Made by a program: the position numbers and the translations under genes. DNA of 62,110 nt, from NCBI GenBank assembly GCA_016842065.1, contig JAEPDS010000026.1, forward strand, positions 1 to 62,110, written 5' to 3'. Below, one piece after another: positions 1,207 to 62,110 of this stretch. This stretch comes from Candidatus Thiodiazotropha sp. 'RUGA' (GTDB taxonomy: Bacteria > Pseudomonadota > Gammaproteobacteria > Chromatiales > Chromatiaceae). The notes beneath the pieces were generated by a model. That model did no database searches. It saw only the letters and a program-made list of their open reading frames with translations, and was not told where the DNA came from. Position 1 is the stretch's first letter, and each line of letters begins with the position of its first letter.

Positions 1207-1266
1207 GACTACCGGCAATAGTCATCCAATGCACCCTTTCACAGCTGAAACAGCGGCAAGCTGAAT

Positions 1267-1290
1267 GGATTAGTCTTAACAGGCCCTAAG
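1267..1290 (+). repeat. End fragment of the palindromic repeat family
   Basis: GGATTAGTCTTAACAGGCCC and the following bases match the terminal segment of the repeats at 3495-3628 and 10107-10377 with one or two differences. The fragment supplies the CTA (stop TAG on the minus strand) that ends the HNH gene. Confidence 0.7.
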
Positions 1291-1849: not shown

Positions 1850-2080
1850 AGTGAGGGACCCTCCATTCAGTTGCACAATTAATTTATCACAACAATTGAG
1901 AGAGTTCGTACTCAAATGGTGAGCTGGGTTCGATTTAGCATTAAAAACCGCAAAAAATAGGGAATCTTTCAAGAATCTCACCCATGTTTATACGGTTTTT
2001 ACTCTATTAATTGCTGTTGATCTCCTCAGTTAGACACTCAACGGGCGCATAATTGACAACTTGTCACGTTTTTTTCGTTT

Positions 2081-8097: not shown

Positions 8098-8745
8098 CTA
8101 TTCGCTGATCGGATCGATCACACCATGCCTGATCGCCAGATGGACCAGCTCTGTGGTGCTTTTTACATTGAGTTTGGATTTGATCTGGGTGGTGTAGTTT
8201 GCCACCGTCTTATAGCTCAATGATAACTCACTGGCGGTTTCAGCCGGGGTCATGCCATGAGCGAGTAGATTGAAAATCTGGAATTCCCGGGTTGTAAGGC
8301 AGGCAAATATCTCCCGGCCGCCGGCCGCCTTGTGCAGCGCAAGATTCTGTGCGAGTTCGTGATCGATATAGGCTTGACCGGAAGCGATGGTGCGAATGGC
8401 ATCGACCATGATTTCCGCTGCGCTGTTCTTGGTGATATAGCCTCTGGCACCCGCTGAGAGAGCCTTTTCAACGAAGGCCGTATCATCGTGCATACTGAAC
8501 ACCAGAATAGATGCCTGATGATCCCGAGCGATAATCCGGCGGATTGCCTCCAATCCACCGATACCGGGCAGGGAAAGATCCATCACCACCAGATCGGGCT
8601 TTAGCTCCGCATAACGCTGGCACGCCTCTTCACCCCGTTCCGCCTCCGCGACGACTTCAATGTCGGGTGTTCCATCAAGCAGTGTACGGTAACCGGCCCG
8701 TACCACCGCGTGATCATCAACCAGCAGTACCCGAATGTTACTCAT
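8098..8745 (-). CDS. NarL/FixJ-type response regulator
   Basis: This 215-residue DNA-binding response regulator has a receiver domain at residues 1-120 with VDDH at the start, the phospho-acceptor in LVVMDLSLPG, FSMHDD and the lysine in YITKNS. A LuxR-type helix-turn-helix follows at 150-210 (LTTREFQIFNLLAHGM, ETASELSLSYKTVANY). The sensor kinase gene ends six bases upstream, so the two form an operon. Related LuxR-type regulators control quinoprotein dehydrogenases in methylotrophs and Pseudomonas (MxaB, PedR2/ExaE). A role here in metal or C1 response is inferred only from position between two TonB receptors. Confidence 0.9.
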   Translation of the reverse strand: MSNIRVLLVDDHAVVRAGYRTLLDGTPDIEVVAEAERGEEACQRYAELKPDLVVMDLSLPGIGGLEAIRRIIARDHQASILVFSMHDDTAFVEKALSAGARGYITKNSAAEIMVDAIRTIASGQAYIDHELAQNLALHKAAGGREIFACLTTREFQIFNLLAHGMTPAETASELSLSYKTVANYTTQIKSKLNVKSTTELVHLAIRHGVIDPISE

Positions 8746-8751
8746 TAGAGA

Positions 8752-10080
8752 TCAACCAGCATCATCTTGGGAAGGAATCGTAATATCAATTGTTACACCT
8801 TGTGGTTGATTACTGACAAGGGATATTTTCCCATTCAATGCCTCGACCCTCTCCCGCATACCCAGCAGTCCCATGCCTTTATGGGATCTGTTTTGATCGA
8901 ATCCTTTGCCGTTATCCCTGATATTGACCTCTATCATACCATCTGATTCACGCTTGATGGTTATCTCCACCTTCTCTGCCGAGGCGTGTTTGGATACGTT
9001 GGTCAATGCCTCCTGAACGATACGATAGAGCGTCATGGCAGTATCATCATCCACGCTGTCGAAGTTGCCGCTGATCATCAGGGCGCAAAAACTCTCTTCC
9101 TGATGGTCATTCCAGCCATCCACCAGTCGCTCGATCGCTGTCTCGACACCCAGTTCCTCCAGGGCAACCGGGCGTAGACGATTCATCATATCCCGCACCA
9201 CGCTATACATGGTGTTGCAGACACCGATGATCGCATTGGTGCCATCCTGCATATTATCCGGGTGCTGCCGGAGGTTGACTGCCATCGCCTTGATCGCACT
9301 GATCGACTGTCCCAGCTCGTCATGCAACTCTCTTGAGAGGTGACGTCGTTCCGACTCCTGGACAGAGATCAGACGCCGGTTGAGTTGTCGATTCTCCTGC
9401 TGTTGGGCCTCCAGTACCTGAGCCATATGATTGAACTGCTGTGACAAACGATTGAGTTCAGGAAGATTGAAACGGGGAAGACGCGCGGCGTAGTCACCAG
9501 ATTGAATCACCCCTAATCCCTTGCTGATCTTGTTTACAGGCCGTAAGGCGCGGCGAATGGTAAAGGCCATCAGGAACAGACAGATCACCGTAAAGGTGAT
9601 GATCAAGGTAAAGACCGATTTTGTTTCCTGCCAGACCTCTTTGATCTCATCGATCGGATCAGCCAGTATCACAATCTCACTGCTGCCGAACAGCGGACTG
9701 GCGATGCGTTTACGATATTCTGCCGGTGCCGGTTTGACCAGTTCATAGAACCACTGGGGAACCACTTTAGAAGATGCAGTTTCCTGTTCGCTGATTGGAT
9801 AGATAATCCGGCCGTCGCCACGAATCACAGCAATCTGCAGATGGCGGGTATCATCCAGACTCTGCAGATGGGTTATGAGAATCTGCTGTGCCTCCACCTG
9901 GTCTTCAGTATGGCCACTGATCAGAGCTGCTGTCAGTAACTGCATGGTGATACGCGCGCTCGACTCAACTTCGTTGTTGATATTTTCCCTGGCAGCGCCC
10001 AAAGCCAGATAGGCACCACTGATCAGCATCGTGGTGACAATTGCAAGTACCAGGATCAGTAAACGACCGGTTAGTGTCAT
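8752..10080 (-). CDS. NarX-like sensor histidine kinase (HisKA_3)
   Basis: This 442-residue membrane kinase probably phosphorylates the downstream regulator. A first transmembrane helix (about 6-28) is followed by a periplasmic sensor region (about 30-155) and a second helix (about 158-178, TLIITFTVICLFL). Next come a HAMP domain, a coiled-coil stretch (EAQQQENRQLNRRL), the HisKA_3 box with the phospho-histidine in LSRELHDELGQ, and an ATPase domain (EALTNVSKHA, DNGKGFD, GMGLLGMRERV). The periplasmic part has no recognisable ligand site. A palindromic repeat starts 26 bases upstream of the start codon. Confidence 0.9.
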   Translation of the reverse strand: MTLTGRLLILVLAIVTTMLISGAYLALGAARENINNEVESSARITMQLLTAALISGHTEDQVEAQQILITHLQSLDDTRHLQIAVIRGDGRIIYPISEQETASSKVVPQWFYELVKPAPAEYRKRIASPLFGSSEIVILADPIDEIKEVWQETKSVFTLIITFTVICLFLMAFTIRRALRPVNKISKGLGVIQSGDYAARLPRFNLPELNRLSQQFNHMAQVLEAQQQENRQLNRRLISVQESERRHLSRELHDELGQSISAIKAMAVNLRQHPDNMQDGTNAIIGVCNTMYSVVRDMMNRLRPVALEELGVETAIERLVDGWNDHQEESFCALMISGNFDSVDDDTAMTLYRIVQEALTNVSKHASAEKVEITIKRESDGMIEVNIRDNGKGFDQNRSHKGMGLLGMRERVEALNGKISLVSNQPQGVTIDITIPSQDDAG

Positions 10081-30699: not shown

Positions 30700-31591
30700 A
30701 CTCACGTGCCACCTCAAACGCACTGTTAAAATCGAGAAATTCCGGATTGCCTTTTTCGAACATCTGCTGCAATAACAGATGCTGGGTCTGATACTTGATA
30801 TTGCCTACCGCCAGGGCACCGATTGCCAGAGCATTGGAGGGTGAATCGAGCATCACCACGCCATCGTCCATTACCCCTACCCCGTCGATTCCTTCTGGTG
30901 GCACCGCATTTACATCGCAGGCAACTTGTAGACGCTCAGCCTTGCGCAAGTGCTCTTTGTTGAGTACTTGAACGCCCGCTTTGGCTGCGTTGAACACCAC
31001 ATCGGCCTGAGGCATCAGATCGACGATCATCTGGTCATCGCTGGCCTGGGCGGCTGTCAGAGTTACACCATAATGTTGCTTGCACAATGCAACGAGTACC
31101 TCGGCCTTTTCGAGTGAATCATGGCTGATGATTACTGCTTCAGCGCCCGCACTGTTGGCCAGCATGGCGGCAGTTGAACCAACTGGACCGGTACCACCGA
31201 ATACCAGTACCCGCTTATTGCGCAGTCCTTCGTCGTCAGACTTTTTCAACTCTCTTTCCACACAGGCAACCATGCCGGCTGCCGTGGTAAAGGCACCACT
31301 GGGATCGGCGAACAACGATACTTCAAACGGAGGAACCATGGATTGACGGGCGACCTGCATCATCTCCATTGCCAGATGGGCATCACGCCCGCCGATGAAG
31401 ATGCCGGTACGTTTAACCCCTTTCGGGCCACGGGAAAATATTGCGTCCTGTACCAGATCACGGACTTCGTTCAGCGCAACATCGATATAGGGAGTACAGG
31501 CTGTCCAGCCTGCATCGTATGCCATATTGACATCAAACGGGCTGAGATTTTTTGCTGCAGTCAGCATGTGTAATAGATAAGGTCTTTCCAT
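30689..31591 (-). CDS. mtdB: NAD(P)-dependent methylene-H4MPT dehydrogenase MtdB
   Basis: MtdB oxidises methylene-H4MPT to methenyl-H4MPT with NAD or NADP. The 300-residue enzyme begins ERPYLLHMLTAAKNLSPFDV, has IFIGGRDAHLAMEM, the dinucleotide-binding VLVFGGTGPVGSTAAMLAN, ADVVFNAAKAGVQVL and a late IGALAVGNIKYQTQHLLL. The ATG at 31591 overlaps the stop of the upstream gene (TGATG); a TTG one codon earlier is less likely. Confidence 0.95.
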   Translation of the reverse strand: MERPYLLHMLTAAKNLSPFDVNMAYDAGWTACTPYIDVALNEVRDLVQDAIFSRGPKGVKRTGIFIGGRDAHLAMEMMQVARQSMVPPFEVSLFADPSGAFTTAAGMVACVERELKKSDDEGLRNKRVLVFGGTGPVGSTAAMLANSAGAEAVIISHDSLEKAEVLVALCKQHYGVTLTAAQASDDQMIVDLMPQADVVFNAAKAGVQVLNKEHLRKAERLQVACDVNAVPPEGIDGVGVMDDGVVMLDSPSNALAIGALAVGNIKYQTQHLLLQQMFEKGNPEFLDFNSAFEVAREYVS

Positions 31592-32610
31592 CAACGGGCT
31601 CGCTTCTGGTTTATCAATCTTGTTGGTTGTTGTAACAGCCTCACCTCCGCACCCACGTTACGGGCAGCCACCTGTTGACAGCGAAATGATGCGAGTTCAC
31701 CGAATCGGCGTTTGAGTTCACGTTCAACCGAATTCGCCTGTGTTTGTCCTTCCAACAACACAAATCCGGTTGGTCCCCATGAACTTTGGCCTACGCCTTT
31801 GAAACCCTGTTCTGCTAGCCAGGTCAATGCGGCCGATATCATCGGACTGGTAAAGCGTCCACCCTGAGCACTAGCGAAGTGGTCTCCGACGACCTGCTGG
31901 ATCTCACCGATTGCCCTTGAGAATGGTTCAAGATGAGCTTCCATGACACCAGGCACCACCTGCATCATGGCCAAGCGACAGAGTTGGGCTGCTGATTGCT
32001 CGGGAAACTGTGGTAATTCATTGAAGGCTCCCACCTCTGCCTTGCCGTGCAAACCCTGCCCACGACTGTCAAACAGCAACAGAATTCGCCATGCGGGTGG
32101 AAACTCGAGTCGGATCGGCACCGGAGGGATGGCATCATCTTCGCCCCGTCCACAATCGAGTATGAACCCACCCTGATCAAACGCACCGATACCGATACCG
32201 GAACGTTTGCCTCGATTCAGACTGTGTGCAATGGAGCTGCTGTCGCGATCTCCTCCGTATAAACGTTCGATTGCCGTACCTACCGCCAACGCCATCTGAG
32301 TACCTGATCCCAGTCCGACATGATCGGGTATCGACTGCAGCAGTTTGATATCGACACCGCCTTTCAATCCATTTGCCTTTAGATACTGTTTGGCAACTGT
32401 AAACGCCCTCTGGGCAGCAGGCCCGTTGGCAGTGATATCGTTGGATTTTGTTGCTCTCAGACGTGTGGCCAGGCTGTCAATGGTCAGCCCGATACTGCCA
32501 AATTTTCTACCCAATCCACCATGCAGATCGAGGAATCCAAGATGCAGTCGTGCGGGTGCCTCAACTTCAACAACAAGCCCTGCATCATTGGATCTGTAGT
32601 GGTAGTTCAT
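31591..32610 (-). CDS. mptG: Beta-ribofuranosylaminobenzene 5'-phosphate synthase
   Basis: This enzyme joins 4-aminobenzoate (hydroxybenzoate in some lineages) to phosphoribosyl pyrophosphate with loss of CO2, the committing step of H4MPT synthesis. The GHMP-kinase-like family marks are clear: EVEAPARLHLGFLDLHGGLG, SIPDHVGLGSGTQMALAVG, GIGIGAFDQGGFILDCG and GQSSWGPTGFVLLEGQ. I start at the ATG at 32610 with AAGG seven bases before it (339 residues); longer starts up to 32718 are possible. It is the first gene of the operon running to fae. Confidence 0.88.
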   Translation of the reverse strand: MNYHYRSNDAGLVVEVEAPARLHLGFLDLHGGLGRKFGSIGLTIDSLATRLRATKSNDITANGPAAQRAFTVAKQYLKANGLKGGVDIKLLQSIPDHVGLGSGTQMALAVGTAIERLYGGDRDSSSIAHSLNRGKRSGIGIGAFDQGGFILDCGRGEDDAIPPVPIRLEFPPAWRILLLFDSRGQGLHGKAEVGAFNELPQFPEQSAAQLCRLAMMQVVPGVMEAHLEPFSRAIGEIQQVVGDHFASAQGGRFTSPMISAALTWLAEQGFKGVGQSSWGPTGFVLLEGQTQANSVERELKRRFGELASFRCQQVAARNVGAEVRLLQQPTRLINQKRAR

Positions 32611-32889
32611 GCTATGACCTTGATCTATTCTCATTATCAAAACCCACTCCTGCAATTTACATGCCTGCCTTTTCGACAGTTGCTGCAGAATCAACTTAAA
32701 TCGGGTCATTGCATCCACTACGCTTGAACCGAAGCAGTGTTGTTACTGGAGGTGAATGGCTGTAATGAGGCTGTATCCGATGCAGTTGTAAGCCGCACCA
32801 GTTCGAGCTGAAACAGTGTTACTCAGTCACAATGGTTGGATATACGGAGCTGTTACGCCGTCGTTTAGGAGTAAGCTGATGAAAGCGGT

Positions 32890-33218: not shown

Positions 33219-33234
33219 TGGCACGCTTTCTGCA
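33219..33234 (+). promoter_or_regulatory. Sigma-54 promoter of fhcBADC
   Basis: TGGCACGCTTTCTGCA matches the -24/-12 consensus TGGCACG-N4-TTGCW at 11 of 12 positions, including GG and GC with exact spacing. The predicted start point near 33245 leaves a leader of about 43 bases before fhcB. Confidence 0.75.
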
Positions 33235-33287: not shown

Positions 33288-34604
33288 ATGTGGAACAAAT
33301 CAATCGACCAGACAATCAACTCTGTCACATGCCCCGGCTGTGGATTGAGTTGCGATGATCTGTCCATCACCTTTGCCGGGGACCAGTTACGCTCTCTGGT
33401 CAATGGCTGTGAAATAGCCCGCAGCTTCTATGAGACGGCACTCGATCACAGTGACCCAACCCCGTTGCTTAATGGTTCACCAGTCACGCTGGATCAAGCT
33501 CTGGCAGCCTGTACAACCCACTTGGAGCAGAGCAACTCTAGCCTTTTTTCCGGCCTGGCTACGGATGTCAATGGAATGCGTGGCATTCTTGAGCTTGCTG
33601 ATTTATGTGGTGCCACACTGGATCACATGAACGGGGATGCAATGTTCAGAAATCTGCGTGTATTGCAGGACAACGGATGGTTTACCACCACCTTCTCGGA
33701 AGCGCGCAATCGGGCAGATCTTGTGGTGTTGATTGGCAGGCAGTGGCTGGATCGATTTCCTCGCCTTGTGGAGCGTGTGCTGAATCCTCAGGATGCCCTG
33801 TTTGTACAATCCAAACAACGTAAAATTGTAATTCTCGGCCCCTGGACGGAGGAATCCCTGCCTGAAGACCTGGCGTCACTTAACCCGCAACTGATCCCGC
33901 TGGAAATGGATGCTGTAGCGGATGCGATCGCACTGGTTAGAGGCGTGATCGCCGGCAAACCGGTGGACCCCAATCGAATCGGCAAGCAGACTGGAGAGCT
34001 TTTGATCAGCCTGGCCAATCAGCTGCAGCAGGCAAACTACAGTGTGATCAGCTGGAGTGCTGCTGAGTTCGATCTGCCCCATGCGGAACTCTCAATACTG
34101 GGCTTGGTGGAATTGGTCAAAGCACTTAATGAGAAGAGACGCAGTGCCGCCCTGCCCCTGGCCGGCACACTCGCGGATATCACAAGTAATCAGGTGACGA
34201 CCTGGCAGCTTGGTTACCCGCTGCGTACCCGGCTGCAGCGCGGCTACCCTGAACATGATCCGATACTCAATCGCTGGCAGGGGCTGATCAGCCGTGGAGA
34301 AGTCGATCTGTTGGTCTGGATATCCGCACTCTCTTCACAGGCCCTGCCGCCAGACTGCGAGATTCCGACAATTGTCTTGGCACACCCGGGAATGAGATTC
34401 AAATCACTGCCAACCGTCTACATTCCTGTGGGTATCCCTGGGGTAGATCATCATGGCCACTGGTATCGTAGTGATGGGGTCTGTCCATTACCGTTAAACA
34501 AGCTGAGACGCAGTAAACTACCCTCTGTTGCTGATCTCACGAACCTGTTGAGCAGACAGTTGCAGACCGCTTCCGGCGTCTCTGCGAGGGATCTCCAATG
34601 TTGA
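33288..34604 (+). CDS. fhcB: Formyltransferase/hydrolase complex subunit FhcB
   Basis: This 438-residue subunit is homologous to the molybdopterin subunit of archaeal formyl-methanofuran dehydrogenase. In bacteria the Fhc complex transfers formyl from H4MPT to methylofuran and hydrolyses it to formate without redox chemistry. An N-terminal VTCPGCGLSCDDLSI keeps a CxxCxxxC motif, and DLVVLIGRQWLDRFPRL and a C-terminal GIPGVDHHGHWYR are recognisable. It is first in the order fhcB-A-D-C, each gene overlapping the next. Confidence 0.93.
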   Translation: MWNKSIDQTINSVTCPGCGLSCDDLSITFAGDQLRSLVNGCEIARSFYETALDHSDPTPLLNGSPVTLDQALAACTTHLEQSNSSLFSGLATDVNGMRGILELADLCGATLDHMNGDAMFRNLRVLQDNGWFTTTFSEARNRADLVVLIGRQWLDRFPRLVERVLNPQDALFVQSKQRKIVILGPWTEESLPEDLASLNPQLIPLEMDAVADAIALVRGVIAGKPVDPNRIGKQTGELLISLANQLQQANYSVISWSAAEFDLPHAELSILGLVELVKALNEKRRSAALPLAGTLADITSNQVTTWQLGYPLRTRLQRGYPEHDPILNRWQGLISRGEVDLLVWISALSSQALPPDCEIPTIVLAHPGMRFKSLPTVYIPVGIPGVDHHGHWYRSDGVCPLPLNKLRRSKLPSVADLTNLLSRQLQTASGVSARDLQC

Positions 34605-36262
34605 TCAAACTAGCCGGCGCCACCGTCTATGATCCAGCCAACAATATCGAAGGGGAAGTCCGGGATATCTATATCCGTGATGACAGAATCGTCTCCGCCC
34701 CGGAAGCTGGAGAGACGATCCACAAGACCTATTCCCTTAACGATAAAATCATCATGGCGGGAGCCATTGATCTTCATACCCATATCGGTGGCGGTAAGGT
34801 CAATATCGCGCGCACCATGCTGCCGGAGGATCAACGGGGAAGCCACCGGGAGCGTACAGACTTGACACGCTCGGGTGGCGGGCATGCTGCACCTTCAACT
34901 CTGTCAGCCGGGTATCGCTATGCGGAGATGGGCTACACCAGTTGTTTTGAGCCGGCAATTCTGCCGGTCAATGCCAGGCAGGCCCATATGGAGATGGCGG
35001 ATACACCAATGCTCGACACCGGTGGCTATGCCATGCTCGGCAATGACGACCTGCTGTTGCAAATGATGGCCGAAGGTGCCGAGCAACAGACAATCAATGA
35101 CTATGTGGGCTGGATTTTGAAAGCATCACAATGCATAGGCATAAAAGTGGTCAACCCAGGGGGCATCAATGCGTTTAAATTCAATCAGCGGGCGCTGGAT
35201 GTTGATGACCTGCACAGCCACTACCAGATCTCACCGAGAGATATCGTACGCAATTTGAGTCGAGCCCTGAGTGAACTGTCAGTTGCCCACCCGTTGCACG
35301 TTCATGCCAGCAATCTCGGTGTACCGGGCAACTATCTATCCACGCTGGCAACGATGGATGCCGCAGAGGGATTTCCGATCCATCTCACACATATCCAGTT
35401 TCACAGTTATGGCACTGAGGGTGACAGGCATTTCTCATCAGCAGCAGCAGCGATAGCCGAAGCCGTGAACGGTCGGGCAAATATCACAATCGATGTGGGA
35501 CAGATAATGTTTGGACAGACGGTAACCGTCTCCGGAGATGTGATGGCTCAACATGCCAATCATCATCACGCCCATCCCAATAAATGGACCTGTATGGATA
35601 TCGAATGCGATGCAGGTTGCGGCGTGGTACCGTTTCGCTATCGAGATAAGAATTTCGTCAACGCCCTGCAATGGGCGATCGGCCTGGAGCTGTTTCTGAT
35701 GGTGGATGATCCCTGGCGGATATTTCTAACCACGGACCACCCCAACGGCGCTCCGTTTACCAGCTACCCCCATTTGATCAAGTTACTGATGGACAGAAGT
35801 TTTCGCAACGATATGCTGTCACAAATCAATCCGGATGCCGCGGCCGCCAGTCAACTGCAGAGCCTGGAGCGGGAATACTCTCTCTACGAGATTGCCATTA
35901 TGACCCGTGCCGCCCCGGCAAGAATCCTTGGTATGACCGACCGGGGACAGTTAGGCCCGGGTGCTATGGCTGATATCGCGGTCTATCATCCGGGAGGCGA
36001 CCCGGAAAAGATGTTCGAGCGCCCGATGCTGGTATTCAAGGCTGGCCAGCCAATCGTCGAAGAGGGGCGAATCAGTCAACCGGTCAGGGGTAAGACCCAG
36101 GTCGTAAGACCGGAATTTGATGAAGCGATTGAGAAACGCATAAAGCCCTGGTTTGATCGCTATCACACCACTGCAATGGAGAACTTCATCATTTCTGATG
36201 ATGAGATGGCAGAAGGTATTGGCAGCCCAATCAATATCCATCCCTGCGGGCTGAACCCATGA
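34598..36262 (+). CDS. fhcA: Formyltransferase/hydrolase complex subunit FhcA
   Basis: FhcA is the amidohydrolase subunit that releases formate from formyl-methylofuran. In 554 residues it shows the metal-binding IDLHTHIGGGKVNIAR near 60, GHAAPSTLSAGYRYAEMGYT, GIKVVNPGGINAFKFN, PLHVHASNLGVPGNY, IHLTHIQFHSYGTEG and DHPNGAPFTSYP. The late ARILGMTDRGQLGPGAMADI is typical for amidohydrolases. It overlaps fhcB by seven bases and fhcD by four. Confidence 0.96.
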   Translation: MLIKLAGATVYDPANNIEGEVRDIYIRDDRIVSAPEAGETIHKTYSLNDKIIMAGAIDLHTHIGGGKVNIARTMLPEDQRGSHRERTDLTRSGGGHAAPSTLSAGYRYAEMGYTSCFEPAILPVNARQAHMEMADTPMLDTGGYAMLGNDDLLLQMMAEGAEQQTINDYVGWILKASQCIGIKVVNPGGINAFKFNQRALDVDDLHSHYQISPRDIVRNLSRALSELSVAHPLHVHASNLGVPGNYLSTLATMDAAEGFPIHLTHIQFHSYGTEGDRHFSSAAAAIAEAVNGRANITIDVGQIMFGQTVTVSGDVMAQHANHHHAHPNKWTCMDIECDAGCGVVPFRYRDKNFVNALQWAIGLELFLMVDDPWRIFLTTDHPNGAPFTSYPHLIKLLMDRSFRNDMLSQINPDAAAASQLQSLEREYSLYEIAIMTRAAPARILGMTDRGQLGPGAMADIAVYHPGGDPEKMFERPMLVFKAGQPIVEEGRISQPVRGKTQVVRPEFDEAIEKRIKPWFDRYHTTAMENFIISDDEMAEGIGSPINIHPCGLNP

Positions 36263-37155
36263 TCATTAACGGCACTCAAATCGAAGAGACTTTCGCTGAA
36301 GCATTCGGCATGAGTGCAACCCGGATCATTATCACCGCTATCGATGCGAAATGGGCCCGAATCGCCGGCGAGACGATGACAGGATTTGCCACTTCTGTGA
36401 TCGGTTGCGGTGTCGAGGCTGGGATCGAAACAGAGCTTCATCCCACACAGACTCCGGATGGTCGTCATGGCGTCTCTGTGCTGCTTTTTGCCATGTCCGG
36501 CAAGGCGCTGGCTAAACAGCTGGAGACCCGGGTAGGCCAATGTGTTCTGACCTGCCCTACTACGGCGGTATTTTCCGGCATGCAGGGTGAGAAGCAGATA
36601 CCGCTGGGTAAGAACCTGCGCTATTTTGGTGACGGCTATCAAATATCCAAACAGATCGGAGAAAAGCGCTATTGGCGGGTACCTGTAATGGATGGCGAGT
36701 TTCTCTGTGAAGAGAGTGTCGCCAGGACGAGCGCAGTTGGCGGTGGCAACTTCCTGGTACTGGCAAATCATCAACAGCAGGCATTAACCGCCTGTGAAAA
36801 GGCAATTGCTGAAATGGGTAAACTGCCGAATGTGATCATGCCGTTCCCCGGTGGCATTGTACGATCCGGCTCCAAAGTCGGCTCCAAATACAAGTCCCTG
36901 ATGGCTTCAACCAATGACGCCTACTGTCCGACACTGCGGGGCCTGGTGAATAGCAATCTCGACAACGATATCGGAGGCGTGATGGAAATTGTCATCAATG
37001 GCCTGACTGAGGCGGATGTACGACAGGCTACCCGCATCGGCATCACCGCTGTCTGTGAAGTGGGAGCAGCGGGTGGTATCAAACGCATATCGGCAGGAAA
37101 TTATGGGGGCAAACTGGGTCAGTTCCATTTCCACCTGCGGGAGGTGATGGCGTGA
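36259..37155 (+). CDS. fhcD: Formylmethanofuran:H4MPT formyltransferase FhcD
   Basis: FhcD moves the formyl group from H4MPT to methylofuran, equivalent to archaeal Ftr. The 298-residue protein shows NGTQIEETFAEAFGMSATRI, IGCGVEAGIE, ERTELHPTQTPDGR-like residues at about 60, FGDGYQISKQIGEKRYWRVP, GGNFLVLA and GGIVRSGSKVGSKYKSLMAS. The length agrees with the family. ATGA overlap with fhcA and a four-base overlap with fhcC. Confidence 0.95.
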   Translation: MIINGTQIEETFAEAFGMSATRIIITAIDAKWARIAGETMTGFATSVIGCGVEAGIETELHPTQTPDGRHGVSVLLFAMSGKALAKQLETRVGQCVLTCPTTAVFSGMQGEKQIPLGKNLRYFGDGYQISKQIGEKRYWRVPVMDGEFLCEESVARTSAVGGGNFLVLANHQQQALTACEKAIAEMGKLPNVIMPFPGGIVRSGSKVGSKYKSLMASTNDAYCPTLRGLVNSNLDNDIGGVMEIVINGLTEADVRQATRIGITAVCEVGAAGGIKRISAGNYGGKLGQFHFHLREVMA

Positions 37156-37967
37156 GCATGCCAAGCCTCAAACTACGCGCCGTTCTGAATCATCGGCTCG
37201 ACATGTCCCCCTTCACACCTGAGTTTGTTGCAGACAAATCGGCCGATGAGATTGCTCGGACACCGATTTGGCTGGGTAACCGGCAGGTTGATACCGGAGA
37301 ACTGTTTGAAATCCGTGACAACGCCTCAGAGAGCCTGCTGATCCAGTCAGAGAGCGACAAGCTCGATATGATCGGCGCTGCCATGAAGCATGGTTCCATC
37401 CTTGTCGAGGGCAATGCCGGTGCCTATCTGGGTCGCAGCATGACAGGTGGAGAGATCCGGATTAATGGGAATGCGGGCCTTGCGGCCGGGTGCGCCATGC
37501 GAGCCGGCAGTCTGGTGATTGAGGGTGATGCGGGGGATTTTCTAGGCGGTGCCCTGACCGGAGAACGCCAGGGTATGCGAGGAGGCAGGATCTCGGTTCA
37601 AGGCAATTGCGGGGATCGGGTTGGCGATCTGATGCGGCGAGGGACAATCCTGATTGGCGGAAACGCTGGAGATTTCTGTGCCTCCCGGATGGTTGCAGGA
37701 ACGATTATCGTGCTTGGCCAGTGCGGCCGGCATACCGCGAGTGGCATGCGCCGAGGTAGCTTGATCACGGCGGGCAAACCGACCAGCTTACCCGCCACAT
37801 TCAATCGCAACGGTATCCACTCATTGAGTTTTCTCACCCTCCTGAGGCAGCAGATCGCATCGCAAACCGGTTTTTCCGGCTTATCTGAGATAGCCAACGA
37901 AGTGGAGCGTTGGGTGGGAGACCTCAGTTGTGATGGTAGGGGAGAGATCCTGATCCTGCAGAGCTGA
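37152..37967 (+). CDS. fhcC: Formyltransferase/hydrolase complex subunit FhcC
   Basis: FhcC is the glutamate-synthase-alpha-C-terminal-like structural subunit. In 271 residues it has a right-handed beta-helix built from GxxGxxxG repeats: VEGNAGAYLGRSMTGGEIRI, GNAGLAAGCAMRAGSLVI, GDAGDFLGGALTG, GNCGDRVGDLMRRGTI and GNAGDFCASRMVAGTI. It starts with GTG at 37152, four bases inside fhcD; a Met is two codons later. It closes the fhc operon; no clear terminator hairpin follows. Confidence 0.93.
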   Translation: MSMPSLKLRAVLNHRLDMSPFTPEFVADKSADEIARTPIWLGNRQVDTGELFEIRDNASESLLIQSESDKLDMIGAAMKHGSILVEGNAGAYLGRSMTGGEIRINGNAGLAAGCAMRAGSLVIEGDAGDFLGGALTGERQGMRGGRISVQGNCGDRVGDLMRRGTILIGGNAGDFCASRMVAGTIIVLGQCGRHTASGMRRGSLITAGKPTSLPATFNRNGIHSLSFLTLLRQQIASQTGFSGLSEIANEVERWVGDLSCDGRGEILILQS

Positions 37968-38108
37968 GTGGCGATCTTGTAAATGTTCAACGGATCGCTG
38001 CTAGCTGAGGATTATCAAGAAGAATCTGTGCAGCCCCGGCTGTAACGTCAATTGTACCTAATGTGGCACATACTCTGTGCCAATAACCCAAGGTTCACCC
38101 TGATACTC

Positions 38109-38198: not shown

Positions 38199-38214
38199 AG
38201 GCACGTTTGTTGCT
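38199..38214 (+). promoter_or_regulatory. Sigma-54 promoter of pqqABCDE
   Basis: AGGCACGTTTGTTGCT matches the sigma-54 consensus at 11 of 12 positions with exact GG-to-GC spacing. The predicted start is near 38225, about 87 bases before pqqA. Upstream, 38050-38080 holds another imperfect palindrome, TGGCACATA-CTC-TGTGCCA. Confidence 0.7.
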
Positions 38215-38311: not shown

Positions 38312-38386
38312 ATGAAATGGTCGACCCCTTCCTATGAAGATCTGCGTTTTGGTTTTGAGATCAATCTCTATATCAATAACCGCTAG
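38312..38386 (+). CDS. pqqA: PQQ precursor peptide PqqA
   Basis: This 24-residue peptide supplies the glutamate and tyrosine that are cross-linked to form PQQ. The core GFEINLYINNR contains Glu16 and Tyr20 with the required three residues between them, and KWSTPSYEDLRFGFE fits known PqqA leaders. GAGGAG lies eight bases before the ATG, while an ATG two codons upstream is too close to it. It is followed by a perfect hairpin and then pqqB. Confidence 0.95.
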   Translation: MKWSTPSYEDLRFGFEINLYINNR

Positions 38387-42584: not shown

Positions 42585-43538
42585 ATCATTGCCACCCGGC
42601 AGTATGGTACAAGATTGGTGATGTTGAATTCTAACTATCCCGGTGGGGAGTGGTAACTCAGCCAGATAGTAGTACTTATTGTTCTCAATTCTAGCCGATG
42701 GTGAAGATTCGAACCACAAACCCCACAGCCCAGCCGGTCAGTTTTCTACTGCTTGATATTGCTGCTGGACAGACTGGGTAACTGTCGAATTGAATCTCAC
42801 TTTCGTTTTAATCGGCATCGTTTGCCCAACATCGGTGGAGTCGAATTTAATCGAATTATCATCAAACTGTTGACGGTTATATGATCGCAAACATTAAACC
42901 GCATCAGTCAATTGATCGCTCGCCACTTGATTGGTACTTATGCAAAGGTACCACAAGTGATCCATTTTTTGCCGGCAATCCCCGGTTCAAAAAACAATTA
43001 AAGCCGCCATGAAGAGGCTAAATATTACTGAAATAAAGTGTCCCAGAGGTGACACACAGTAAATCTTCACGCCGAAAAAATGAATCACATCATCTTTTCG
43101 ACCGCTTAACAGATAAACCACTCGGACAGCTTGATAGTAGTTACTTATCGATAAAAGAGTTACAGCTTGCTAAGAGTCATGGCAGGCGGATGATAAAACA
43201 CTAAAATCAGTCAATTAAGCCAACCTTTTTATATTTCGAATTAAAACATTTAATATTTGCTCCGGACTATTCGGCGAATATCTAAACTCCGATTGGACCT
43301 GATCGTAAGAAACCTATTATTTACATTTATTCAGTCACTTATGATGGTCATTGAGGCATCGGGTTGTGCAAAATCAATATCAAGCCGGACAATAACCAAG
43401 AGAGATCCAATCAAACGACTCAACTGCCGCCTACTGGCCTGAATTCAGCTCTATCACTCTCACATTAAGCTGATCGTCGGATCGACGGCTTGCCATCGAC
43501 AAACCATCCCAACCTGTAAAAGAGACAGTTTGAGTGTT
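42585..43538. other. Long intergenic region upstream of xoxF
   Basis: About 950 AT-rich bases separate pip from the xoxF promoter. Short frames at 43257-43442 and 43538-43723 lack ribosome sites and family features. A near-palindrome GTGTCCCAGAGGTGACAC lies near 43040. I see no RNA gene or transposase. Confidence 0.4.
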
Positions 43539-43554
43539 TGGCACACAAGTTGCT
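43539..43554 (+). promoter_or_regulatory. Sigma-54 promoter of xoxF
   Basis: TGGCACACAAGTTGCT matches the sigma-54 consensus at 11 of 12 positions with exact GG-to-GC spacing. The predicted start near 43565 leaves a leader of nearly 200 bases before xoxF, much longer than for the fhc or formate dehydrogenase genes. Confidence 0.75.
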
Positions 43555-43762
43555 CAACTGTCTTTGTCGCATGATAGGACTGCCTGTACAGAAGCGACAT
43601 GGTAACGACTTATACAAAGACCTGGAGAAGTTCATTGATAGTAATGGAGGAGCGATAGGAAATATTTCGATTCGGACGCTGCTGTATTGTCACTTTTTTA
43701 GAATCGTCAGTTATCTCTATTGAGGCAGTCTCACTAATGAATAAAACCCGAGGATAGAAACT

Positions 43763-45565
43763 ATGGTAACAGCAAAACGCAAAGTTCTAGCGATATGCTT
43801 CACTGCCTCTGCCATGCTAGCTGCTGCAGGTGGTGTAACAGCAAATTCAGAGCTATTGAAGATGCAACAAAATGCGAATGACTGGGTAATGCCTAACGGT
43901 AACTATGCCAGCACTCGCTATAGTGAATTGAATCAGATTACAGCGAAAAACGTCAAAGATTTAAAAGTTGCCTGGACCTTTTCAACCGGCGTTCTGCGTG
44001 GTCATGAAGGTGGTCCCCTTGTAATGGGAGATGTGATGTATGTTCACACTCCTTTTCCAAACAAGGTTTTCGCATTGGACCTCAATGACGATGGCAGAAT
44101 CATTTGGAAATACGAACCACGTCAGGATACCAGCGTTATCCCTGTAATGTGTTGTGACACAGTCAATCGTGGCCTGGCCTATGGTGACGGCAAAATCATC
44201 ATGTCTCAGGCAGACACAACCCTGGTAGCACTGGATGCAAAAACCGGTAAAAAAGTTTGGTCAGTCAAAAACGGTGACCCCAGTAAGGGCGAGACCTCTA
44301 CCGCCGCACCGATGGTAGTAAAAGACAAAGTCTATATTGGTGTCTCCGGTGGTGAATTTGGTGTTCGTGGTTCTTTGACAGCCTATAGCCTGAAAGATGG
44401 TAAACAGGTTTGGCGTGGTTACTCCATGGGACCCGACAGCGATACGCTGCTAGATCCGCAAAAGACAACCCATCTTGGTAAGCCTGTTGGTAAAGACTCT
44501 GGCATCAACACCTGGAAAGGTGACCAGTGGAAAATCGGCGGCGGTGCAACTTGGGGTTGGTACTCATATGATCCTGATGAAAACCTTGTCTACTACGGAT
44601 CCGGAAACCCAAGTACCTGGAATCCGGTTCAACGCCCTGGTGACAACCGTTGGTCAATGACCATCTTTGCCCGTGATGCTGACACGGGTATGGCTCGTTG
44701 GGTATATCAAATGACCCCTCATGATGAGTGGGACTATGATGGTATCAATGAGATGATCCTGGTCGACCAAAAGATCAACGGTAAGATGCGTAAGGCACTG
44801 GTGCATTTTGACCGCAACGGTTTTGGCTATACCATGGACAGGGTTACCGGTGAACTGCTGGTGGCGGAAAAGTTTGATCCTGCTGTCAACTGGGCAACCC
44901 ATGTTGACATGAAGACAGGCCGTCCACAAGTCGTTGCCAAGTACTCTACACACCAGAATGGTGAGGATGTAAACTCAACCGGAATCTGCCCGGCAGCTTT
45001 GGGAACCAAGGATCAACAGCCGGCAAGCTACTCACCACGAACAGGTCTGTTCTATGTACCAACCAATCATGTCTGTATGGACTATGAGCCTTTTGAAGTC
45101 TCATATACCGCAGGCCAGCCCTATGTTGGAGCCACTCTCTCCATGTATCCGGCGCCAGGTGGTAACAACCTGGGTAACTTCATCGCTTGGGATGCTGATA
45201 AGGGTAAGATTGTCTGGTCAAACGAAGAACCCTTCTCAGTGTGGAGTGGTGCACTTTCCACCGCAGGTGACGTTGTTTTCTACGGTACACTCGAAGGTTA
45301 CCTGAAAGCGGTAGACGCCAAATCCGGTAAAGAGCTGTATCGCTTTAAGACACCTTCCGGCATCATTGGTAACGTCAATACCTATATGCATAACGGCAAG
45401 CAGTATATTGCTGTGCTGTCTGGGCTTGGCGGCTGGGCCGGAATCGGTATGGCAGCTGGCCTGACCGATCCAACAGCTGGCCTGGGCGCGGTGGGTGCCT
45501 ATGCTTCCCTAAGCAATTACACCCAACTTGGCGGTACATTGACTGTATTCACACTGCCTGATTAA
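43763..45565 (+). CDS. xoxF: Lanthanide-dependent methanol dehydrogenase XoxF
   Basis: This periplasmic PQQ enzyme oxidises methanol and passes electrons to a cytochrome c. The 600-residue precursor has a signal peptide ending near GGVTANS. The adjacent cysteines of the PQQ-pocket disulfide are Cys130-Cys131 (VMCCDTV). Metal ligands fit Glu198 (GGEFGV), Asn282 (GNPSTWN) and the catalytic aspartate in DEWDYDG, and Asp326 two residues on marks the lanthanide type, where MxaF has Ala. Beta-propeller tryptophan-docking repeats are present. GAGG precedes the ATG. It heads xoxF-xoxG-xoxJ-rhodanese. Confidence 0.97.
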
Positions 45566-45613: not shown

Positions 45614-45661
45614 AACACTTCACCAGAAATATAACCGTATGGTTTTTTTATGAGGCTCAAA

Positions 45662-46132
45662 ATGCTGCACTTCAGATTCAGTAAACCCATTCTGCTTGCC
45701 ACCCTTGCACTGACCTACTCGATCACTTGCTATGCAACACCAAGCAAGGCTGACTACAAAAGTTTCCAACCCTCACCTGATCAGCCATACTACTTTGAAG
45801 ACGGTAAGGTTGACTTCGGTACATATAATGGGTTTCGTCGTTACCATGCTGATTGCCATGTCTGTCATGGTCCCGCAGGATTAGGCAGCAGCTATGCACC
45901 AGCACTGCTCGATTCCCTGAAGGTCATGACCTGGGGTGACTTTGTCAATGTCGTAATCAGTGGTCGTGAAGGAAGAGATAATATGATCATGCCTTCGTTC
46001 GCAAAAAATGTTGACATCGTAACCAATCTGTCTGACATCTATGCCTATTTAAAGGCGCGTGCCGATGGTGTAATTGGTGCAACCAGACCAGCCAAGTTTC
46101 CAAAAGTTAAAAAGTTGATTGCTGACAACTAA
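45662..46132 (+). CDS. xoxG: XoxG-type cytochrome c, electron acceptor of XoxF
   Basis: This secreted monohaem cytochrome c of about 156 residues probably takes electrons from XoxF. It has a signal peptide (ILLATLALTYSITCYA), one haem site, CHVCH, in YHADCHVCHGPAGLG, and a possible methionine ligand in MIMPSFAKN. The segment FEDGKVDFGTYNGFRRYHADC is typical for cytochromes beside quinoprotein dehydrogenases. The frame opens at 45650; the ATG at 45662 has AGG six bases upstream and is preferred. Confidence 0.9.
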   Translation: MLHFRFSKPILLATLALTYSITCYATPSKADYKSFQPSPDQPYYFEDGKVDFGTYNGFRRYHADCHVCHGPAGLGSSYAPALLDSLKVMTWGDFVNVVISGREGRDNMIMPSFAKNVDIVTNLSDIYAYLKARADGVIGATRPAKFPKVKKLIADN

Positions 46133-46223: not shown

Positions 46224-47081
46224 ATGCAAAAAACAGGTTCTTTGTCTTGCTTGAGCATGCAGAACCTGTTTTTTTTAATCTGTTGTTTCACTCTACAGCT
46301 TTTTATCTCTTCCCCCAGTGAAGCCAAGAATACATTTGAGGCTCGCAACAAAACCTATCTGACCGTATGCGGTGATCCAAACCACCTGCCATTTTCAAAC
46401 AAGAAGATGCAGGGTTTTGAAAATCGTATTGCACAATTGATCGCTGATGACCTGGAGCGTACCTTACGCTACCACTGGTGGCCACAAACGATCGGCTTTG
46501 TGAGAAACACACTGAAGATAAGGCTCTGTGATTTAATCATGGGGGTGACTTCGGTTAATGAACTATTGCAGAACACCAATCCCTATTATCGCTCAGTCTA
46601 TACGCTGGTCTACCGAGAGGATTCCGGATTGAAGATTAAGACTCTGAATGATCCGGTGTTAAAGCAGCTCCGTATCGGCGTGGTGGCAGGAACGCCTCCG
46701 GCAACTGTATTAACCAACAATGGTCTGATGGACAAGGTAAAGTCCTATCATCGTACTGTGGACACCAGACTATATTCTCCTGCAACACGGGCCGTTGAGG
46801 ATGTTGCCCTTGAAAAAATTGATATTGCTGTAATCTGGGGGCCCATTGCAGGCTATGCAGCAAAAAATCAACAGATACCGCTCGCGGTGGTACCGCTGCC
46901 AGCGAAGGTCGACAATGTACCACTGGCCTTTAATGTCTCCATGGGCATCAGACGCCGTGAACAGAACTGGAAACATCAGTTGAACGTGAAGCTGGAAGAG
47001 CTGGCACCCCAAATCGAGACAATATTACTCGACTACCGGATACCACTACTTGATGCCAATGACAATCTGATCAAACCTTGA
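46224..47081 (+). CDS. xoxJ: XoxJ, periplasmic solute-binding-like protein
   Basis: XoxJ belongs to the family 3 solute-binding fold and is thought to help activate or assemble XoxF. This 285-residue protein has an N-terminal export signal (LFFLICCFTLQLFISS), then TVCGDPNHLPFSNKKMQGFE, HYWWPQ-like YHWWPQTIGFVRNTL, CDLIMGVTSVNELL and AVIWGPIAGYAA. These segments match XoxJ/MxaJ. It follows xoxG by 91 bases; GGAGG stands before the ATG. Confidence 0.9.
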   Translation: MQKTGSLSCLSMQNLFFLICCFTLQLFISSPSEAKNTFEARNKTYLTVCGDPNHLPFSNKKMQGFENRIAQLIADDLERTLRYHWWPQTIGFVRNTLKIRLCDLIMGVTSVNELLQNTNPYYRSVYTLVYREDSGLKIKTLNDPVLKQLRIGVVAGTPPATVLTNNGLMDKVKSYHRTVDTRLYSPATRAVEDVALEKIDIAVIWGPIAGYAAKNQQIPLAVVPLPAKVDNVPLAFNVSMGIRRREQNWKHQLNVKLEELAPQIETILLDYRIPLLDANDNLIKP

Positions 47082-52470: not shown

Positions 52471-52486
52471 GGGCATGAAAATTGCT
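52471..52486 (+). promoter_or_regulatory. Sigma-54 promoter of the SRPBCC/beta-propeller operon
   Basis: GGGCATGAAAATTGCT matches the consensus at 10 of 12 positions with exact spacing. The predicted start near 52497 is about 42 bases before the GTG start of the SRPBCC gene. Confidence 0.6.
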
Positions 52487-52538
52487 GCAGAGGAATCACT
52501 AATCATAACAACTCTCTGTCTCAAACTTGGAGGTCCTC

Positions 52539-53072
52539 GTGAAAAGATGGTGTATTCTGTTCTCCATTCTTCTGTTCAGTTACTCAGTCGTAGCCAATGC
52601 TCATGGTCCCACTCGACAAAAAGTTACCGTGAAACAGATGATCTCTGCCCCTCCAGAGACAGTATGGGATAAAGTGAAGGATTTTCATGATATGAGCTGG
52701 CATCCGATTATTGCGAAGACTGAAGGTAATGGTGGCAACACCAAGGGCGCTACGAGAGTCCTGACCCTGGTGAACGGTGGAATTATTAATGAGGAGTTGA
52801 AGAAGTACGATGCCGGAAAACAGAGTTTCAAGTATAAGATCAACTCAGTAGACGTAAATATTCTGCCTGTCACCAACTATTCCTCGACTTTGACCGTCAA
52901 GGCAACTGGAGACGGTGGTTCACAGGTCATCTGGAAAGGCGCTTTCTATCGAGGTTATCCCAACAACGACCCTCCTCCGGAACTCAATGATCAGGCAGCG
53001 AAAGATGCGGTCACCGGTGTCTACAAAAGTGGCCTGGAAAACCTTAAAAGTCTGCTGGAAAAAGGTTCCTGA
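52539..53072 (+). CDS. Secreted SRPBCC-fold protein of the PQQ cluster
   Basis: This 177-residue exported protein has a signal peptide (RWCILFSILLFSYSVVANA) and a START/polyketide-cyclase-like SRPBCC domain: VKQMISAPPETVWDKVKDFH, WHPIIAKTEGNGG, GATRVLTLVNGG and a last helix VTGVYKSGLENLKSLLEKG. The fold holds small hydrophobic ligands. Homologues occur in quinoprotein clusters; function unknown. GGAGG five bases before the GTG at 52539 sets the start. Confidence 0.8.
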   Translation: MKRWCILFSILLFSYSVVANAHGPTRQKVTVKQMISAPPETVWDKVKDFHDMSWHPIIAKTEGNGGNTKGATRVLTLVNGGIINEELKKYDAGKQSFKYKINSVDVNILPVTNYSSTLTVKATGDGGSQVIWKGAFYRGYPNNDPPPELNDQAAKDAVTGVYKSGLENLKSLLEKGS

Positions 53073-56632: not shown

Positions 56633-56877
56633 AGTAGTATCCTCGATAAGTGTGAGAGTTTTGCCAACACACGCTGATAGCACCTACTGTGTTAGATATC
56701 TATTTTGAAAAGCCGTTCCTGCAACAAGTAAAATCGTCTGCCAGAACTGATCTACCCATTCAGTTCTTCAGTAGATAATGAACTACGGACATTTCTGTCT
56801 CAGCATCGACAGGTACGCGGGCTCAACCCTACTAAAGACAGGTTTTTATTGAGTACGCCCGTTCTCCTTAATACCCT

Positions 56878-57825: not shown

Positions 57826-57896
57826 GACACAAGTCTGACTATATTGAATTTTGAGTATCTTCTGAAATAGTAAACTAGTATCAAGCGACAGCAGAT

Positions 57897-57912
57897 TGGC
57901 ATATATTTTGCG
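57897..57912 (+). promoter_or_regulatory. Candidate sigma-54 promoter for the TauABC-like operon
   Basis: TGGCATATATTTTGCG matches 9 of 12 consensus positions with correct GG-to-GC spacing. The predicted leader to 58008 is about 85 bases. Confidence 0.4.
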
Positions 57913-58007
57913 GAAATTAATAAAAATGCCGTATTGACGAGTTGTCTTGACTTGTTTCATTTCTGGCAGAGATAGCAAAAATAATATTTCAACCTGTTGG
58001 AGGAAAA

Positions 58008-60684: not shown

Positions 60685-60700
60685 TGGCACATGAATTGCA
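60685..60700 (+). promoter_or_regulatory. Sigma-54 promoter of the formate dehydrogenase genes
   Basis: TGGCACATGAATTGCA matches the consensus at 11 of 12 positions with exact spacing. The predicted start near 60711 gives a leader of about 33 bases to the TTG at 60744. The rest of the 60521-60743 gap holds no gene. Confidence 0.75.
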
Positions 60701-60743: not shown

Positions 60744-62110
60744 TTGTCACCTTCAGCAAAACCACAGAAACGACGTTTTGGCCAAAGCAAAGGCCGGCAT
60801 ATCGATCCGGCCGCCCGACAAACCGTTCGTCAGTTACTGGAGAGCATGCCACGTCGTGCGGATCTGCTCATAGAAGCACTGCACAGACTACAGGATCATC
60901 TGGGTTATATATCGAAAGATCTGCTGAGCGCTCTTGCCGATGAGATGAATCTCTCCAGCGCTGAAATCTATGAAGTGGCCAGTTTCTATCACCATTTTGA
61001 TCTGGTATCTGAGAATCAGGCCTCCCCTGCTCCGTTGACAATCCGTGTCTGTGAATCCATTTCATGCGATCTTGCAGGGGCAGAGAGCTTGATTGAAGAT
61101 CTGAGCAAGTCACTCGGTGACAAACTGAGGATCCAGCGGGTTCCCTGTGTTGGTCGATGTCAGGATGCACCGGTTGCGGTGGTTGGCAAGCTACCGGTTT
61201 CACAGGCTGATCAAAATAAAGTCACTCAATTGGTTGAAGCCGGCCAGACTGACGCCGATCTACCCGAAGCTTATATCGACTACAAAACCTATTGCGCTGA
61301 AGGCGGGTATAGGCTGCTGCAACAGATTCAGAGCAGTGAACCCAGCCGTGAGGAGAGTTACCAGTTATCCATAGAGCAGGTGATAGAGACACTCGAGGGC
61401 GCCAACCTGAGAGGCTTGGGTGGTGCCGGATTTCCAGCCGGCCGTAAATGGCGAATTCTCAGAGATCAACCTGCCCCACGGTTGTTGGCAGTAAATATCG
61501 ATGAGGGAGAACCCGGTACTTTTAAAGACCGTTTCTATCTGGAACAGGATCCTCACCGGTTTTTAGAGGGTACTCTGATTGCAGCCAAAGTTGTCGGCAT
61601 CAGTGAGATCTACATCTATTTAAGGGATGAATATGCCGCAATCCGCAAGATGTTGCAGCAGGAGATATCCGCATTGCAGGCAGACCCACCCTCTCCCCTA
61701 CCTCCGATACATCTACGCCGGGGTGCCGGCGCCTATATCTGCGGGGAAGAGTCGGCCATGATTGAGTCGATCGAGGGTAAGCGCGGCATGCCCCGCCAAC
61801 GCCCTCCCTATGTAGCTCAGGTCGGGCTGTTTGGTCGTCCCACACTGGAACATAACATGGAGACCCTCTATTGGGTTCGCGAGCTGCTGGAGAAAGGTGC
61901 CGACTGGTTTGCCCGGCAGGGACGGAACGGGCGACACGGTCTGCGTAGCTTTTCCGTCAGTGGGCGGGTTAAAAAACCCGGCGTCCATCTCGCACCAGCC
62001 GGAATCACTCTGCTCGAGTTGATCGATGAATATTGTGGCGGGATGCTCGATGGACATCAGCTGTATGCCTATTTCCCCGGCGGCGCTTCCGGTGGAATTC
62101 TGCCCGCATC
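60744..62110 (+). CDS. NAD-dependent formate dehydrogenase beta subunit, NuoE-NuoF fusion (partial)
   Basis: This subunit passes electrons from formate to NAD. The visible 455 residues hold a NuoE-like [2Fe-2S] domain with cysteines in VCESISCDLAG and VPCVGRCQDAP, then a NuoF-like domain with the FMN/NAD site RGLGGAGFPAGRKW, NIDEGEPGTFKDR and GAYICGEESAMIESIEGKRG. The fusion matches Fdh1B-type tungsten or molybdenum formate dehydrogenases; the alpha subunit should lie beyond the right edge. No ATG fits; a TTG at 60744 downstream of the promoter is the likely start. The gene is cut by the window. Confidence 0.88.
   Translation, partial: MSPSAKPQKRRFGQSKGRHIDPAARQTVRQLLESMPRRADLLIEALHRLQDHLGYISKDLLSALADEMNLSSAEIYEVASFYHHFDLVSENQASPAPLTIRVCESISCDLAGAESLIEDLSKSLGDKLRIQRVPCVGRCQDAPVAVVGKLPVSQADQNKVTQLVEAGQTDADLPEAYIDYKTYCAEGGYRLLQQIQSSEPSREESYQLSIEQVIETLEGANLRGLGGAGFPAGRKWRILRDQPAPRLLAVNIDEGEPGTFKDRFYLEQDPHRFLEGTLIAAKVVGISEIYIYLRDEYAAIRKMLQQEISALQADPPSPLPPIHLRRGAGAYICGEESAMIESIEGKRGMPRQRPPYVAQVGLFGRPTLEHNMETLYWVRELLEKGADWFARQGRNGRHGLRSFSVSGRVKKPGVHLAPAGITLLELIDEYCGGMLDGHQLYAYFPGGASGGILPA

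Follow-up and report, generated by a model that had tools for sequence, protein, structure and literature searches.

A conserved sigma-54-type site upstream of xoxF suggests a one-carbon regulon in Candidatus Thiodiazotropha

Discussion of xoxF control usually centres on lanthanides and two-component systems. A stretch of DNA from Candidatus Thiodiazotropha sp. 'RUGA' (62,110 nucleotides of contig JAEPDS010000026.1, the whole of which is referred to here as the window) raises the question of whether sigma-54 and an enhancer-binding activator may also be involved. The xoxF gene, at 43763..45565 on the forward strand, encodes a PQQ methanol dehydrogenase of 600 residues (TIGR03075, 784.8 bits, cut-off 480.05), in which the motif W-D-Y-D, which we take to be the lanthanide-type aspartate signature of XoxF, begins at residue 323. 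Genes follow on the same strand for a xoxG-type cytochrome c (45650..46132; TIGR03874, 136 bits, under the cut-off of 161.75) and a xoxJ-type periplasmic protein (46224..47081; TIGR03871, 293.9 bits, cut-off 212.15). The original prediction placed a sigma-54 site matching 11 of 12 consensus positions about 210 bases before xoxF, and this is borne out in its coordinates, match, register and distance. The 16-mer TGGCACACAAGTTGCT occupies 43539..43554 on the forward strand and ends 208 bases upstream of the xoxF ATG at 43763. It agrees with TGGCACG-N4-TTGCW at 11 of the 12 specified positions, with the GG of the -24 element and the GC of the -12 element in register. The genome has rpoN (PF04552, 236.5 bits).

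By sequence alone, TGGCACACAAGTTGCT is not beyond chance expectation for the window. With at most one mismatch, TGGCACNNNNNTTGCW is matched seven times; shuffled sequences average 3.2 matches, and seven is reached in six of 100. Over both strands, the GG/GC register is combined with a score of at least 11 at four positions (33219, 38199, 43539 and 60685), all on the forward strand, and these top-scoring sites precede fhcB, a putative pqqA, xoxF and fdhB, respectively. Lowering the threshold to a score of 10 gives 14 window sites, eight on the forward and six on the reverse strand, of which six were counted as preceding one-carbon (C1) genes. The ten extra sites include one at 52471, before a mxaD-like gene, and one at 32651-32666, before the beta-RFAP synthase gene; the other eight were not counted as promoters.

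Comparison within the genus is more informative. A XoxF match at an E-value of 1e-100 was found in 15 of the 56 genomes searched, including that of the window, and an xoxF ortholog (at least 85% identity over the matched stretch) in 12 of the 22 congeneric genomes, while G008 and G016 have only a XoxF relative of 41% identity. In G011 the xoxF gene is read as two overlapping frames (L026 and L034) on contig C89, possibly the result of a frameshift or an assembly error. Conservation among close relatives, which the original prediction had named as a check, was found in every xoxF-bearing genome of the genus: the site, as TGGCACACAAGTTGCT or a near copy, is present upstream of xoxF in 12 of 12, with 180 to 225 bases between it and the ATG. 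Its 15-base core, TGGCACACAWGTTGC, occurs in 12 of the 22 congeneric genomes, which are exactly those with xoxF, and the reversed-pattern control gave none. A second copy of the core is seen in G001, G003 and G011, each time before fdhB. In the alignment of the 12 genomes, the site is invariant in 14 of its 16 columns and the 5' flank in 4 of 76. For the xoxF, fhcB and fdhB regions, shuffling gives sites scoring at least 10 at a rate of 1.9% (62/3300) per 510-bp region. Because 12 of 12 conserved sites stand against this rate, we take conservation in the genus to be decisive for the site being real, with congeneric genomes counted as related rather than independent samples.

The same kind of site was looked for across the island in the genomes of the genus, using 42 query rows (41 genes) and 288 upstream regions of 450 bp plus 60. 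Scores of at least 10 were found upstream of xoxF in 12/12, fhcB in 10/10 and fdhB in 11/11 cases; fdhB reaches 12/12 when G011 is counted through its second TGGCACACAWGTTGC copy, and a row labelled 'fdh' (2/2) is fdhB again. The other rows reaching this score were pqqB (through pqqA; 3/9), the SRPBCC gene (2/4), ABCperm (1/11) and beta-RFAP synthase (1/8), this last being a different site, as a more upstream start codon was taken for this row, which misses 32651-32666. An apparent site before orf228 (1/4, in G019) had a negative coordinate and was discarded as a slicing artefact. No site of at least 10 was found upstream in the remaining rows of the 288-region scan. As controls, the reverse strand gave sites in 8 of the 288 regions and shuffled regions gave 1.7% (48/2880).

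The sigma-54-type site before fhcB, TGGCACGCTTTCTGCA (33219..33234, forward strand), is present in 10 of 10 genomes and precedes fhcBADC (33288..37967, forward), the formylmethanofuran dehydrogenase/formyltransferase genes, recognised as open reading frames in a conserved order. The fhcB product gives 254.3 bits with TIGR03129, under the cut-off of 327.8, and the names fhcA, fhcD and fhcC are our assignments. The divergent gene at 31591..32622 on the reverse strand, the start codon of which is uncertain, encodes beta-RFAP synthase of H4MPT synthesis (TIGR00144, 154.7 bits over 113.5; NF040726, 185.2 bits, under 328). It is preceded by a weaker sigma-54-like site, AGGCATGTAAATTGCA (32651..32666, reverse), which scores at least 10 in 6 of 9 genomes, with variants recognised by eye in G019 and G006. 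At the other end of the window, the sigma-54-type site TGGCACATGAATTGCA (60685..60700, forward) is found in 11 of 11 genomes, plus G011, before the gene at 60744..62108 (forward). We name this gene fdhB, presuming it to encode a formate dehydrogenase subunit, and Pfam finds in its product Complex1_51K and 2Fe-2S thioredoxin-like domains. It runs past the contig end into contig C87, which carries fdhA, a porin gene, a DHPS-like gene and an activator gene.

Two further sites are weaker or more restricted. The SRPBCC gene at 52527..53072 (forward), an open reading frame found in 10 genomes that we call MxaD-like, is preceded by the weaker sigma-54-like site GGGCATGAAAATTGCT (52471..52486, forward). 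When more upstream sequence was taken, this gene had a site of at least 9 in 10/10 genomes and of at least 10 in 8/10, and at a score of 9 there was none before its neighbours YVTN2 (0/9) and orf228 (0/11). The sigma-54-like site AGGCACGTTTGTTGCT (38199..38214, forward) lies 97 bases 5' of a putative pqqA of 24 codons (38312..38386, forward), which was read from the sequence and has a conserved frame; pqqBCDE follow, pqqB being above the cut-off of TIGR02108. The pqqA site reaches at least 9 in 4/9 genomes and at least 10 in 3/9, and is not genus-wide. Taken together, and beyond the single promoter considered in the original prediction, control would appear to be common to xoxF, fhcB, fdhB, the mxaD-like gene and beta-RFAP synthase; in some species pqqA would belong to this group as well. 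A near-palindrome, TGTGGCACATACTCTGTGCCA, is present at 38062-38083, 5' of the pqqA site, and a similar stretch is seen in G012. The methanol island also contains, at 55787-58041, genes that we label soxYZ and metallo-beta-lactamase-like. PMC11237559 describes a soxYZ-S4 setting which the arrangement at these positions resembles.

The last 91 bases of the window are the start of contig C87, where positions 5807-7765 hold the gene of an AcoR/DhaR-type enhancer-binding protein with domains in the order GAF, AAA+ and Fis HTH. Both GAF (PF01590) and HTH_8 (PF02954) are over their cut-offs, Sigma54_activat gives 222.9 bits, and the motifs GETGTGKE and, at residue 418, GAFTGA are present. Through the overlap the activator gene would lie about 24.1 kb after the start of xoxF; G012 has the two genes on a single contig, 24.2 kb apart. 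The gene order is fdhB, fdhA, a porin gene (in G000 and G012), the DHPS-like gene (reversed) and the activator gene, with a flavoprotein gene next in relatives; the activator sits among formate-dehydrogenase and pterin genes. An ortholog (75-100% identity) is found in 12 of the 22 congeneric genomes, the same 12 as xoxF, and the best match in the other 10 is at most 45% identical; the co-occurrence of island genes is partly trivial because they are linked. The protein shares its domain order with DhaR and AcoR, the latter of which we presume it to resemble. It differs in that its best NCBIfam match, DhaR (NF008485), gives 322.8 bits and does not reach the cut-off of 551, and in that its gene has H4MPT and formate dehydrogenase genes around it. 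A further paralog (L248, L249), 58-59% identical to the C87 activator, is present in G003, G004, G015 and G020.

No activator-binding site common to all the promoters was found, and little of the sequence 5' of the xoxF site is conserved (4/76 columns). TGTC/GACA half-sites occur near fhcB, fdhB and pqqA, while the full pattern TGTCNC-N6-GNGACA is not enriched genome-wide. This pattern, taken from the promoters of a second PQQ alcohol dehydrogenase, was rejected as a general activator site, as in six genomes it was not above the reversed control.

It is quite probable that xoxF is transcribed from the sigma-54 promoter at 43539-43554 as a member of a C1 regulon, and that the C87 protein is the likely activator. 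The regulon would comprise xoxF, fhcBADC, fdhBA, the mxaD-like gene and beta-RFAP synthase, with pqqA in some species. Its observed basis is site conservation, co-occurrence, linkage and domains; from these we infer RpoN dependence and the pairing of activator with promoters, together with a binding site and an inducer for the activator. A one-carbon signal, at a guess formaldehyde, methanol or formate, would be sensed by the N-terminal half of the C87 activator, with its GAF and possible PAS domain. The activator's GAFTGA-bearing AAA+ domain would then bring about opening of the promoter to which sigma-54 RNA polymerase is bound, and the oxidation of methanol to CO2 would be raised as a unit. 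The sigma-54 control of xoxF put forward in the original prediction gains support from the 12/12 conservation of the site, from rpoN and from an activator in the same island. The enhancer-binding activator proposed there for the methanol system now has a candidate, encoded in the island and distributed as xoxF is, unlike the two-component kinase discussed below.

Because the genome has 20 strong activators among 26 enhancer-binding protein matches, another of them could act at xoxF. A sigma-54-dependent xoxF promoter could then be driven by an NtrC-type protein, or by the AcoR-like paralog encoded near a second PQQ alcohol dehydrogenase of the genus (L039, L165; contig C18 of the genome). This dehydrogenase is 40-42% identical to XoxF and has a sigma-54-type site of at least 10 in 13/13 loci. 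With the AcoR-like activator gene nearby, 43-45% identical to the C87 activator, it presents the pattern that would be expected for a sigma-54 alcohol dehydrogenase. The paralog is also present in G008 and G016, however, both of which are without an xoxF ortholog, while the C87 activator matches the distribution of xoxF and is in the island. On the distributions of these two of the 20 activators, control of xoxF by a different activator seems rather unlikely.

The reading that xoxF is run mainly by a two-component system of MoxXY or PedS2/PedR2 type and sigma-70, to which the -24/-12 site would be a minor addition, fares less well. MoxXY-type circuits control PQQ alcohol dehydrogenases. The window does encode a LuxR-type regulator and a LapD/MoxY-type histidine kinase, recognised with Pfam, at 8098..10080 on the reverse strand, outside the regulon proposed here. 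In Pseudomonas putida PedS2/PedR2 likewise controls PQQ alcohol dehydrogenases (PMC6115532). These systems resemble the present case in what they control and differ from it in being two-component systems with LuxR-type regulators; moreover, the pair in the window does not follow xoxF. At 1e-60 the kinase is found in 11 of the 22 genomes and is discordant with xoxF in five, being present without xoxF in G008 and G016 and absent beside xoxF in G001, G003 and G011. No sigma-70-like promoter was found in 43300-43800, which is weak evidence, since shuffles average only 1.0. A LuxR-type regulator could in any case also work with sigma-54, as is reported for exaA of Azospirillum brasilense, described as being under sigma-54 and a LuxR-type regulator (Singh et al. 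2017, as cited in PMC6115532). We regard a mainly two-component, sigma-70 control of xoxF as very unlikely. TonB-dependent receptor genes at 5600-7906 and 10629-12695 flank the MoxY-like kinase and the LuxR-type regulator, and their products could take up a metal or another ligand. That the conserved site is a coincidence, or has a function other than in transcription, would suit a motif that by sequence is within chance in the window and is scarcely credible for one that is invariant amid poorly conserved flanks, is shared by several C1 promoters and has similar counterparts before C1 genes in other families. By comparative genomics, a dedicated sigma-54 regulon with its own activator is the most likely mechanism.

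Downstream of the xoxF site an invariant element, TGTCGC-N7-GACTGCCTGT-N6-GCGACA (43565..43599, forward), is present in 12 of 12 genomes and is a candidate 5' hairpin of a leader RNA or an operator. In every genome its start lies precisely 11 nt downstream of TTGC, which places it at the predicted +1 to +35, and its TGTCGC and GCGACA arms have 23 or 25 nt between them. Further on, AGGCAGTC (43723..43730, forward) is complementary to the loop sequence GACTGCCT, the 8-bp complement being kept in 9/12 genomes and a 5-bp core in 12/12, and it lies 14-19 nt (19 nt in the window) before GAGGAT, a putative ribosome site. In the leader helices 98.1% of cells are paired, with no changes on both sides, that is, without covariation. 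Folding of the full leader is not better than that of shuffled sequences (z 0.27), and Rfam gave two weak matches to it, both far under the gathering score. Among 369 genomes of the class the element pattern is found in two, both of this genus. The element may be an RNA leader or an operator, an RNA role being somewhat likelier because it stands in fixed register with the predicted start. A role as the activator's binding site seems less likely, by reasoning only, since the positions from +1 to +35 would be covered by RNA polymerase.

To see how far the arrangement extends, the class was searched with the C87 activator, at most three candidates being scored per genome. A match at 1e-150 was found in 20 of the 369 class genomes, two of them from this genus, and neighbourhoods were compared in 13 of the 18 genomes from other families. 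In 10 of these 13, from seven genera, the activator adjoins genes related to the C1 genes of the window, namely genes of H4MPT/methanofuran synthesis in nine (G118, G280, G242, G119, G089, G274, G367, G366 and G155) and fdhA in G241. G390 has only fdhA and fdhB relatives of 36-38% identity near the activator, and no C1-gene relatives were found beside it in G174 or on the 3.7-kb contig of G345. In the activator tree 28 rows form a clade, supported at 100/99, to which the paralog encoded close to the second PQQ alcohol dehydrogenase does not belong; the 28 are 11 genus orthologs, four genus paralogs and 13 rows from 12 of the 13 other-family genomes, G011 and G241 being absent.

In 250-bp upstream regions from the other families, sites of at least 10 precede ptps in 4/5 cases (in four families) and fhcB in 2/2. 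The background is 3/90 for the other regions, two of the three belonging to the activator gene within a single genus, and 4/97 on the reverse strand. Across the 14 other-family stretches there are 31 sites of at least 10, most of them not before C1 genes. XoxF-like genes in the activator-bearing genomes of other families have a site in 6/16 cases, three of these being relatives of 42-44% identity. Among 80 named XoxF relatives, two have a site of at least 10, with 0/80 on the reverse strand; three activators used as queries had no relative at 1e-20 in any of these loci. G045, from another family, has no site upstream of xoxF. The xoxF site is thus not general outside the genus. Because xoxF sites are rare elsewhere while C1 neighbourhoods are frequent, the link of the activator to the H4MPT cluster looks broader than its link to xoxF.

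It is possible, as a tentative extension, that H4MPT-linked C1 oxidation in many Gammaproteobacteria is governed by these sigma-54 activators, a clade of their own with the role of a master switch. The genus would then have put its lanthanide methanol dehydrogenase under the switch and added a 5'-terminal leader RNA. With its hairpin at +1 and a loop that pairs close to the ribosome site, this leader would adjust the translation of xoxF, perhaps in answer to a metal, a cofactor or a metabolite.

The original prediction knew of no RpoN-dependent xoxF, and none was found here in searches of mainly open-access literature; nor was a report of RpoN-dependent H4MPT genes. The nearest known systems each share part of the proposed control. 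The exaA system is alike in that a PQQ alcohol dehydrogenase gene depends on sigma-54, a dependence that is predicted here, and differs in that its gene is not xoxF and the partner is LuxR-type and not AcoR-type; the part of PMC6115532 covered does not mention H4MPT or formate dehydrogenase genes in its account of exaA. In methanotrophs the sMMO operon is under sigma-54 and MmoR (PMC5874634), which offers the likeness of C1 oxidation genes, a -24/-12 promoter and a GAF-type sigma-54 activator encoded nearby. There the target is methane monooxygenase, however, and in the text covered xoxF figures only for the lanthanide response and sMMO pairing (PMC5874634). FhlA is a sigma-54 activator that answers a C1 metabolite, formate (PMC6540204), but the C87 activator gives 206.2 bits against the FhlA model cut-off of 830, and FhlA has other targets. 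The proposed control is of a known kind, sigma-54 with an activator, and what would be new is its application to an xoxF regulon.

A cluster similar to that in the window, with XoxF, the H4MPT pathway and formate dehydrogenase, is described for the Ca. Thiodiazotropha symbionts of lucinid clams (PMC11171427), as is soxYZ beside fdhAB and xoxF (PMC11237559). A symbiont metatranscriptome gives median TPM for two clades under upwelling and non-upwelling conditions (PMC12172469), and its genes are equated with those of the window by name, with orthology assumed. From upwelling to non-upwelling, beta-RFAP synthase goes from 300 and 276 to 3216 and 3724, mxaD from 104 and 142 to 1801 and 2337, and fdhA from 828 and 1260 to 2262 and 2372; mtd, xoxG, exaA and a porin are likewise higher in non-upwelling (PMC12172469). 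The authors write of 'potential co-regulation', the regulator being unnamed in the text covered (PMC12172469). These data agree with the predicted regulon, sigma-54 involvement not being implied by them. Methanol dehydrogenase is highly transcribed in either season, and transcripts of an rpoE/rseA pair increase together with those of the methanol genes (PMC12172469), so that regulation need not be all-or-none or by sigma-54 alone.

A sigma-54 regulon that couples methanol dehydrogenase to the oxidation of formaldehyde and formate would give one mechanism by which sulfur-oxidising symbionts step up their use of methanol as an accessory energy source. The predicted regulon also names one candidate regulator for the co-expression seen in the field. 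If its inducer is a C1 compound, the activator clade could also serve as a sensor part.
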